Notes under the pieces: generated by a model
Database searches by the model: none
Told to the model about the DNA's origin: nothing
The model's input: the letters and a program-made list of their open reading frames with translations, nothing else
Part shown: positions 38,406-45,777 of the stretch, piece after piece
Layout: each line of letters starts with the position of its first letter
Position numbering within the stretch: the stretch's first letter is position 1
Position numbers and translations under genes: made by a program
Assembly: GCA_019117285.1 (NCBI GenBank)
Contig: DXAA01000001.1
Location: forward strand, 1-64,000
Length of the DNA: 64,000 nt
Origin: Candidatus Limosilactobacillus intestinigallinarum
GTDB lineage: Bacteria; Bacillota; Bacilli; Lactobacillales; Lactobacillaceae
Direction: 5' to 3'

Positions 38406-39197
38406 CTATTGAACGGTCAGTTCGACCTTACCCAAACCATGGTCGAAGCGGACCAGCCAGTGGCCCTGGACCAGTTTGGGTGGCAGGACGAAGGTCCCCG
38501 ATGAAACCAATTGGCCCTGACGGAAGACCTTCCCCTGACTAGCCAGCTTCTTGACTAACCATTGCAGGGAATTCAGTGGATTGCCGAGGACCTCTTTCGA
38601 AACGCCTGCATCGAGTTGGCGGTCACCGAGGAAGAGCTGGGCATTGACCGTAGCCAGCTCATCAACGTTTTGAAAGAGGGCGTCGGTCGGGTGCTCCTGA
38701 CCGTAAACCACCAGGCCGCCGACAGCACAGTCAGCCATTACGTTGTACTTGCCAAGGTCTGGGAACCAGTCAGCAAAGCGGGAGTCGGGGACCTCCAGTG
38801 CCCCGGCAACCGTGGTCTTATGCATTAGGTCGTCAAGACGATCGTCGGGGCGAAGGTCTTCTTTGGCCCGGAAGGCGAGTTCCACCTCAACCAGCGGTTC
38901 CATCTGGTCGGCCAGCTTAACGGTGGCCGGTGATGGCAGGAAGTGGCTGTCGACCTGCTGCCCGTAGAGCGGGGAGTCGGCATCAAACATCTGTTGGGTC
39001 TGCTTGCTGGTCAGCGAGACCTTGTAGCCACCGACCGGGACGCCCTTTAGTTTCATCACCTGGTCCTGGACGGCATAGGCGGTGTCATCGTCGGTGACGG
39101 TACCGGCCCAGTCCGTCTCGTGAAGGGGGTTGCCAGTGCTGGCGGCGTCAAATAGTGCTTGGGCAAATTTAGTTTGTTGTTCGTTTAATGTAGTCAT
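38406..39197 (-). CDS. 2-keto-4-pentenoate hydratase-like protein (FAH superfamily, MhpD type)
   Basis: 263 residues. The MhpD/2-oxopent-4-enoate hydratase layout is seen: DDTAYAVQDQVMKLKGVPVGGYKVSLTSKQ near residues 35-65, an acidic metal-site pair in MEPLVEVELAFRAKEDL, and the C-terminal GTFVLPPKLVQGHWLVRFDHGLGKVELTV. The reference reaction adds water to 2-hydroxypenta-2,4-dienoate in aromatic degradation, but no such pathway is visible here, so the real substrate is open. ATG 39197 has ACGGAGGAA upstream; the track ORF wrongly extends to 39311. It lies behind a T-box and a 28-aa ORF. Confidence 0.83.
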   Translation of the reverse strand: MTTLNEQQTKFAQALFDAASTGNPLHETDWAGTVTDDDTAYAVQDQVMKLKGVPVGGYKVSLTSKQTQQMFDADSPLYGQQVDSHFLPSPATVKLADQMEPLVEVELAFRAKEDLRPDDRLDDLMHKTTVAGALEVPDSRFADWFPDLGKYNVMADCAVGGLVVYGQEHPTDALFQNVDELATVNAQLFLGDRQLDAGVSKEVLGNPLNSLQWLVKKLASQGKVFRQGQLVSSGTFVLPPKLVQGHWLVRFDHGLGKVELTVQ

Positions 39198-39243
39198 AAT
39201 CAATTCCTCCGTTCGGTTTGACCATGACCCCATCCCCAATCGT

Positions 39244-39330
39244 TCACCCACACGGATGAGGATCATGGTTATTATCTGTTTGGTAGTTGTGCTGCGTAAT
39301 GTTGATATCACTAATGTTGCTTTCGTTCAT
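39244..39330 (-). CDS. 28-residue Asn/His-rich small protein behind the T-box
   Basis: The ORF MNESNISDINITQHNYQTDN...HPCG has one of the best ribosome-binding sites in the window, AAAGGAGGTGAGGGCC, 7 nt before ATG 39330. It starts 20 nt after the T-box terminator's T tract and ends 46 nt before the hydratase start. Composition is extreme: seven Asn, three His, three Ile and a C-terminal HPCG. Either it is a functional microprotein or a leader peptide coupled to hydratase expression. It is too short for family assignment; I do not recognise it. Confidence 0.6.
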   Translation of the reverse strand: MNESNISDINITQHNYQTDNNHDPHPCG

Positions 39331-39351
39331 GGCCCTCACCTCCTTTAGAGA

Positions 39352-39658
39352 AACAAAAAAACGTCCTTCAAGCATCGCTGTGATGCTTAAAGGACGAATA
39401 GCTCGTGGTACCACCTTATCTTCATGGAAAATCCATCTCAACCAGACATGATAATCTGTGGTCCGGGTAATGGTGGACGAGACCAGGGGAACCTACTGTC
39501 TTCAGCCCCCAGCTTCCAGGTGATGTTCGGTTCGGCGACGTCGCTTGGTTCACACCAGCCACCAAGTCTCTGCGGTCAGTCGTCAACCTACTATCCTGAG
39601 CATTGCTGTTTCTGTCTTAAATTGCACTCATCATACTCATCAAATTTTAATCTGTCAA
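39352..39658 (-). promoter_or_regulatory. T-box riboswitch with promoter, probable Ile (AUC) specifier
   Basis: Minus strand. Promoter TTGACA (39658-39653), 17-nt spacer, TATGAT (39635-39630). Stem I shows the AGTA loop-E strand, the AGAGA..GGCTGGTGTGAACC distal region, and on the 3' side GAA-C-ATC-A, placing the specifier at 39522-39524 (AUC, isoleucine). The T-box AAGGTGGTACCACGAGC is at 39401-39418 and the competing terminator CGTCCTTTAAGCATC/GATGCTTGAAGGACG plus seven T at 39354-39396. Uncharged tRNA would favour the antiterminator and expression of the 28-aa ORF and hydratase. Confidence 0.85.
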
Positions 39659-45620: not shown

Positions 45621-45737
45621 CTGAGTTGATTAAATATGACTCTGCCTAAGACTCAGGTGGCGAAAGCCTTAATCCAATGCCTGCCGAGGAAGAAATGTAA
45701 GTTCCTTCTCTATGTCTGCGGTCATAGGGATTTTTTT
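45621..45737 (+). promoter_or_regulatory. Ribosomal protein L10 leader with attenuator
   Basis: CTGAGT...ACTCAG pairing, GGTGGCGAAAGCC, and CTGCCGAGGAAGAAATGTAAGTTCCTTCTC resemble the L10(L12)4-binding leader found before rplJ in Firmicutes. It is followed by a terminator TCTCTATG/CATAGGGA with seven T (45707-45737), so excess L10 could stop transcription. Confidence 0.75.
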
Positions 45738-45777
45738 ATAAAATCCGATCAAAATACATTGCAGGAGGTGAAAATTC

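Follow-up and report, generated by a model that had tools for sequence, protein, structure and literature searches.

An isoleucine-type T-box and a probable second isoleucine sensor precede an isoleucine-free hydratase-like gene in Limosilactobacillus

Organization of the hydratase locus

We analysed a 64,000-nucleotide stretch of DNA (the window) from Candidatus Limosilactobacillus intestinigallinarum (contig DXAA01000001.1, from an assembly of 1.22 Mb that is 67% complete), in which a gene for a hydratase-like protein of the FAH superfamily lies behind a T-box riboswitch and a 28-codon open reading frame (ORF). The locus is probably an isoleucine-starvation gene under two successive isoleucine sensors; the T-box specifier AUC and the codons of the leader ORF specify the same amino acid. 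The core of this arrangement is an ordinary T-box; its target is new as far as our literature search goes, a second isoleucine sensor is probable, and the gene product contains no isoleucine. Regulation of the hydratase by isoleucine is well supported by the comparison of orthologous leaders, and these features would mark the enzyme as an unrecognised member of the isoleucine-starvation response. A sequence-only reading of the same DNA had described the T-box and the hydratase, and had left unremarked the role of the 28-residue ORF as a possible second sensor, the lack of isoleucine in the enzyme and the family-wide association of these elements. The features of the locus are listed below.

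39630..39658, minus strand: promoter TTGACA-17 nucleotides-TATGAT, matching 11 of 12 consensus positions
39387..39612, minus strand: isoleucine-type T-box leader, stem I to antiterminator (Rfam RF00230, full length)
39522..39524, minus strand: specifier codon AUC (Ile), loop GAACAUCACC, context GAA-C-AUC-A
39402..39416, minus strand: T-box motif region AGGUGGUACCACGAG (antiterminator)
39355..39396, minus strand: intrinsic T-box terminator and T run (15-pair stem 39396-39362, then TTTTTTT)
39244..39330, minus strand: 28-codon leader ORF MNESNISDINITQHNYQTDNNHDPHPCG with Ile codons 6, 9 and 11 and a strong Shine-Dalgarno (SD) sequence GGAGGUGAGG
39328..39340, minus strand: putative attenuator segment 1 GGUGAGGGCCAUG, with the leader ORF's SD and start, complementary to segment 2
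39254..39268, minus strand: putative attenuator segment 2 CCAUGAUCCUCAUCC, the 3' part of the leader ORF, partner of segment 1 or 3
39222..39236, minus strand: putative attenuator segment 3 GGGAUGGGGUCAUGG, 3' of the leader ORF (2:3 duplex -25.6 kcal/mol, p=0.01)
39218..39228, minus strand: 3' part of segment 3 GUCAUGGUCAA, able to form 11/11 pairs with segment 4
39206..39210, minus strand: hydratase SD GGAGG, within the loop of helix 3:4
39193..39203, minus strand: putative attenuator segment 4 UUGAUUAUGAC, including the hydratase start codon (AUG)
38406..39197, minus strand: FAH-superfamily hydratase-like protein, 263 residues, zero Ile

The T-box and its specifier

The T-box in the window matched RF00230 with 98.4 bits (gathering score 93, E 2e-20, model positions 1-219). 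The promoter, stem I, T-box motif and terminator described by the sequence-only reading were all found; the terminator (39396-39362) shares sequence with the T-box match, which extends to 39387. The hydratase gene was present in 138 of 301 Lactobacillaceae genomes, and loci were taken from these and from named genomes. Among 135 non-redundant loci, 115 had a T-box motif upstream of the hydratase (at most two errors, within 560 nucleotides), a degree of conservation that argues for the proposed T-box control of the gene. Rfam returned a T-box for each of the 22 tested orthologous leaders in which one had been predicted, and for none of three in which it had been predicted to be absent.

The specifier was AUC in 111 of 114 aligned orthologous leaders, and the other three showed a one-base alignment shift. 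This comparison upholds the earlier assignment of AUC in a GAA-N-specifier-A context. A one-base shift of the loop in the window would yield CAU (His) or UCA (Ser), as that reading had allowed. We found that the base 5' of AUC was G in 37, A in 34, T in 32 and C in 8 of the 111 leaders, while the base 3' was A in 79, G in 16, C in 14 and T in 2. Because AUC is constant while both flanking bases vary, the alignment rules out the two shifted specifiers; in addition, the enzyme is free of isoleucine, yet not of histidine or serine. We therefore give a histidine or serine specifier practically no credence, and the window T-box is strongly supported as real, complete and of the isoleucine type. The assembly contained 14 T-box-like matches, of which three were of the isoleucine type as judged from the specifier and the downstream ORF, namely those of the hydratase, ileS and a PanE-like reductase; the PanE-like protein was identified by NCBIfam, and the ileS and hydratase targets by reading the sequence. 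Separately, two T-box/antiterminator motifs were observed in tandem ahead of an amino-acid ABC transporter (locus L008, G000:C8:48755-49100), with CAC (His) as the apparent specifier of the first.

The hydratase lacks isoleucine

The window hydratase had no isoleucine among its 263 residues against a local background of 5.9% (p ~1e-7 for a single protein). The same absence was found in 102 of 112 hydratases behind a T-box and in 12 of 15 behind a leader peptide, which amounts to 114 of 127 isoleucine-regulated orthologs. In contrast, homologs without a detected sensor contained 4-18 isoleucines in 17 of 18 cases: five such members of the family had 0, 4, 5, 8 and 10, and the range was 4-18 in 13 T-box-less homologs that belong to other families of the order. 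The contrast between regulated and unregulated proteins gave a Fisher p of 3e-13, a value that overstates independence because the species are related; the contrast is nonetheless plain. The positions at which unregulated homologs carry isoleucine were occupied mainly by valine, leucine or methionine here, and leucine and valine were abundant in the enzyme. Chance, or a compositional trait of the hydratase family, would be the alternative explanation, and the relatedness of the orthologs, whose counts are not independent, speaks in its favor. We consider it very improbable in view of the single-protein p value, the exchange of isoleucine for V, L or M in a protein rich in Leu and Val, and the isoleucine content of the sensor-less homologs inside and outside the family, with a single exception.

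Having lost all of its isoleucine, the enzyme could be made while isoleucine is missing, which may be the purpose of the observed composition. Enzymes of amino-acid biosynthesis are known for a low cognate bias (PMC4209129). The hydratase resembles them in avoiding the amino acid that, when scarce, induces its synthesis, and it differs in that the avoidance is complete and the enzyme has not been placed in isoleucine metabolism. Complete isoleucine loss strongly suggests a place in isoleucine metabolism for an enzyme whose annotation is that of an aromatic-degradation hydratase, in bacteria most of which are without the classical pathway.

Isoleucine codons in the leader ORF

Leader ORFs between the terminator and the hydratase were picked in 85 leaders solely by the strength of the ribosome-binding site; five of these were judged to lie outside the class, which left about 80 Lactobacillaceae leaders with a comparable isoleucine-containing ORF, where AUU is the usual isoleucine codon. 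Across codons 2-17, the 85 leaders had a mean of 2.74 isoleucines compared with 1.53 in dinucleotide shuffles; at least two were present in 73 of them, and codon 5 was isoleucine in 55. Comparison of similar pairs of leader ORFs revealed that the isoleucine sites were the most conserved, with 450 kept and 40 changed versus 1637 and 888 elsewhere. Synonymous single-base codon changes were enriched in the leader ORF frame only (311:466, compared with 158:686 and 162:565 in the other frames). In the clade of the window, the leader ORFs used AUU and AUC in a ratio of 19:4, whereas the genes of the window used them in a ratio of 86:215 (p=4e-7); sensitive attenuators are known to require a particular synonymous regulatory codon (PMC1183508). 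The leader ORF had no Pfam or NCBIfam match. These results indicate that the 28-residue ORF is not incidental and, from its sequence features, probably acts as a second isoleucine sensor. We also observed that, besides isoleucine, codons 2-17 at the approximately 80 loci encoded mainly S, D, Q, N, K, E and G and were poor in L, V, R, F, Y and W, as if isoleucine were left as the sole limiting residue.

The T-box was replaced by another leader at some orthologous loci. A leader peptide with a dense isoleucine run, e.g., MVNSAKTNVQIIISIIIIS, or MLKSNVKQTNRQLNIIAAIIIT in Fructobacillus, was found in 15 of the 20 loci without a T-box, and in the folded examples the run was followed by a terminator-like hairpin and a T run, which is the layout of a classical attenuator. 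In the L. reuteri-type and Convivina leaders, the T-box was located directly ahead of the hydratase without a leader ORF. Thus, three regulatory designs ahead of one orthologous gene all point to isoleucine, and these alternative leaders constitute a natural experiment in regulatory RNA replacement.

Mutually exclusive helices in the leader

Segment 1 of the window (GGUGAGGGCCAUG) can form 12 of 13 pairs, by reading, with segment 2 (CAUGAUCCUCAUC), and segment 2 (CCAUGAUCCUCAUCC) is complementary to segment 3 (GGGAUGGGGUCAUGG). The 3' part of segment 3 (GUCAUGGUCAA) can in turn pair with segment 4 (UUGAUUAUGAC), which contains the hydratase AUG, with a predicted energy of -15.2 kcal/mol, or -18.5 kcal/mol with a longer segment 4. 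Pairing 2:3 is incompatible with both 1:2 and 3:4, and helix 3:4 shuts over the hydratase start codon. The folds were done per clade, as the spacers of different clades were too different for one global consensus fold. Compared with shuffled sequences, p values of 0.05 or less were obtained for helix 1:2 in 38 of 74 leaders, for 2:3 in 38 of 70 and for 3:4 in 29 of 68, where 5% would be expected. In the window, the 2:3 and 3:4 helices each had p=0.01, and helix 1:2 had p=0.01 in the closest relative. In the short-leader clade, segment 1 paired straight with segment 4 in five of six leaders. Additionally, the 2:3 helix covaried in the clade of the window: across five distinct sequences 85.7% of the pairs were kept, and in three pairs both partners had changed, while slid controls kept 34-54%. 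When segment 3 was locked by segment 2, the predicted exposure of the hydratase ribosome site in the window rose from 0.41 to 0.70, and among 38 leaders the exposure rose by more than 0.1 in 14 and fell by that much in none. The layout of a translational attenuator is well supported by these complementarities.

Several results weigh against a switch of this kind. The 1:2 helix of the window itself was borderline (p=0.10), the start codon had been re-picked by hand in six leaders for the helix tests, and significant helices were missing from roughly half of the leaders, chiefly those of two clades with long CACATA-rich spacers. In the 12 testable leaders, masking control segments produced the same average exposure gain as holding segment 3, so the gain may not be specific to segment 3. 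Simulated ribosome stalling raised the mean exposure only from 0.42 to 0.47 (18 leaders up and one down), and at equilibrium it gave the window almost no gain. A ribosome at codons 5-6 would also cover the SD half of segment 1 only in part. The equilibrium simulation was too weak to serve as proof of translational control by the peptide and was discarded in that role; so small an effect means that such control would need a co-transcriptional folding order.

The spacer between the T-box and the hydratase had a further property in at least two clades, where CACATA/ACACATAG motifs occurred up to 12 times per leader (loci L041, L042, L066-L081, L089, L097-L099, L113 and L123). In total, 176 CACATA-type motifs were observed versus 14.5 expected from shuffles, with an irregular spacing of 7-195 nucleotides, and no Rfam match accounted for them. 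The CACATA-rich clades were those with the weakest attenuator helices.

Proposed mechanism and alternative explanations

We propose that the hydratase is controlled at two levels. At the level of transcription, uncharged tRNA-Ile(GAU) would bind the T-box at its AUC specifier and block the terminator, so that, by the known action of the T-box family, the leader ORF and the hydratase would be transcribed mainly when tRNA-Ile is uncharged. At the level of translation, the read-through RNA would encode the leader peptide with its isoleucine codons. Without a stalled ribosome, helices 1:2 and 3:4 could pair, and 3:4 would close over the start codon of the hydratase; a ribosome stalled on the isoleucine codons would interfere with segment 1, segment 2 would take segment 3, segment 4 would be freed and the hydratase would be translated. 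The order and direction of these translational events are modeled on erm-type and anti-TRAP leaders, and by this analogy it is likely that stalling switches the hydratase on.

The explanation that the T-box is the sole regulator, where the ORF would encode a conserved small protein or serve translational coupling and the role of the hairpins would be limited to protecting or spacing the mRNA, fits the L. reuteri-type and Convivina leaders, in which the T-box adjoins the hydratase without such an ORF. It also agrees with the recurrence of D, S, Q, N and G in the leader peptide and with the weak stalling simulation. It leaves aside, however, the fact that the best-conserved sites of the ORF are its isoleucine codons, and that its variable C-terminal part nonetheless base-pairs with the SD of the same ORF. 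Three mutually exclusive complementarities that recur far above chance, and the isoleucine-run peptides that stand in for the T-box in other genera, likewise argue against it, and we regard a T-box acting alone as unlikely. Somewhat less probable still is a coupling arrangement in which a ribosome reaching the end of the leader ORF opens the hydratase site, so that isoleucine starvation would lower rather than raise translation. For several leaders, the predicted exposure rose equally whether the ribosome was close to the ORF end or stalled early, and in one clade the leader ORF overlaps the hydratase start. A device shutting the gene under starvation would nevertheless oppose both the T-box and the isoleucine-free composition, and in the clade with short leaders the hydratase site is masked by segment 1 itself, such that an early stall opens it. 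Control by two isoleucine sensors in succession thus remains the explanation that we favor.

Identity and metabolic setting of the enzyme

The profile matches of the window hydratase were HpaH (1.5e-25) and MhpD (1.3e-20), in line with the FAH-superfamily assignment of the sequence-only reading, although the scores missed the MhpD/HpaH equivalog cut-offs (90 vs 351.5 and 74 vs 350 bits). In the Protein Data Bank, it matched 8ih6 (1e-17). The AlphaFold model had a predicted local distance difference test score of 91.7, and Foldseek matched it to NahK, HpcG and MhpD with template modeling (TM) scores of 0.87-0.89 (E 7e-25). The E-x-E and E motifs (EVEL and ALEVPD) were conserved in the hydratase alignment, and we take them to resemble the metal site of MhpD. 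By sequence and predicted structure, the hydratase is placed with MhpD, HpcG and NahK of the FAH superfamily. It shares with MhpD, HpcG (HpaH) and NahK the predicted fold (TM ~0.88) and the E-x-E...E metal-site motifs, and differs from them in its sequence (20-28% identity, with equivalog scores far under the cut-off), its lack of isoleucine and the absence of aromatic-degradation genes nearby.

The sequence-only reading had found no pathway around the hydratase and had suggested a link to branched-chain 2-oxo acids. The first statement holds for the window and fails for relatives in which the gene directly 3' of the hydratase, one relative each, encodes BrnQ (L137), a PanE-like reductase (L053) or an L-2-hydroxyacid/lactate-dehydrogenase-like protein (L025). 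The link to 2-oxo acids gains circumstantial support from these neighbors and from the second isoleucine T-box gene, which is the following.

G000:C13:137952-138188 (L003/L165): PanE-like reductase under its own AUC T-box

PanE-like enzymes in Lactococcus reduce branched-chain 2-oxo acids. A T-box motif was present in about 18 of the 30 orthologous or paralogous PanE-like loci inspected, and the proteins under AUC T-boxes mostly had 4-8 isoleucines compared with 16-21 in most T-box-less paralogs, with several exceptions in both directions. IlvC was absent from all 15 sampled genomes of the genus, and the classical isoleucine pathway was therefore rejected as the setting. In Lactobacillaceae as a whole, the hydratase gene occurred in 33 of 35 genomes with IlvC and in 105 of 266 without it (p=2e-10, uncorrected for relatedness).

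A branched-chain 2-oxo acid would be the most economical guess for the substrate, and the enzyme may carry out a step of branched-chain 2-oxo acid metabolism that feeds isoleucine supply or salvage. We tentatively suggest, as a doubtful but possible extension, that Lactobacillaceae, even without IlvC, have an unrecognised isoleucine supply or salvage route that uses the isoleucine-free MhpD-like enzyme together with isoleucine-poor enzymes of the PanE or hydroxyacid-dehydrogenase type. The MhpD-like enzyme might, for example, dehydrate 4-hydroxy-3-methyl-2-oxopentanoate or tautomerise 3-methyl-2-oxopentanoate. As induction would require both the T-box and the isoleucine-stalled leader peptide, the route would be made only under severe isoleucine starvation.

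Comparison with known regulatory systems

In translational attenuators of the ermC/cat type, access to the following ribosome-binding site is governed by a leader ORF together with a switch between the pairings 1:2/3:4 and 2:3. The hydratase leader has the same combination of an ORF and exchangeable pairings, although there are differences: the signal would be a starved codon rather than an antibiotic, segment 1 is the SD of the leader ORF itself, and an upstream T-box gates transcription.

In the at operon of Bacillus subtilis, a tryptophan T-box reportedly precedes the rtpLP leader peptide. The hydratase leader would be analogous to this anti-TRAP leader in sensing a single uncharged tRNA twice in succession. 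In contrast to it, the hydratase leader senses isoleucine instead of tryptophan, and its target is an enzyme instead of an antagonist of an RNA-binding protein; its arrangement is family-wide in Lactobacillaceae, with dispersed isoleucine codons and the exclusive helices 1:2/2:3/3:4. To our knowledge, the anti-TRAP operon is otherwise the only case of a T-box in tandem with a leader-peptide sensor, so the hydratase locus, if our proposal is correct, would be the second, for a different amino acid and in many genera. The at (rtpA, anti-TRAP) operon leader was described by Chen and Yanofsky (2003, 2004), as cited in PMC11255114.

The hydratase T-box is of the same riboswitch class and amino acid specificity as the isoleucine T-boxes of ileS and branched-chain amino acid genes, as covered in the main text of PMC2494555. 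The same text includes an isoleucine T-box on the unnamed lactobacillus gene LBA1071, termed 'Ile related hypothetical' (Wels et al. 2008, PMC2494555). The main texts of PMC2494555 and PMC3766115 contain no mention of a hydratase target for a T-box. We found no paper linking a T-box to a hydratase in lactobacilli, and an entry in Vitreschak 2008, Gutierrez-Preciado 2009 or the supplements is possible.

Neighboring features

The window hydratase was 92% identical to its counterpart in Limosilactobacillus pontis DSM 8475. The minus-strand locus is flanked by a divergent proline-iminopeptidase-like gene on one side and a convergent L1 ribosomal protein gene (L1 by reading) on the other. An ordinary L10 leader (RF00557, 73.6 bits) was also observed at 45627-45745 of the window, ahead of an L10-like gene.
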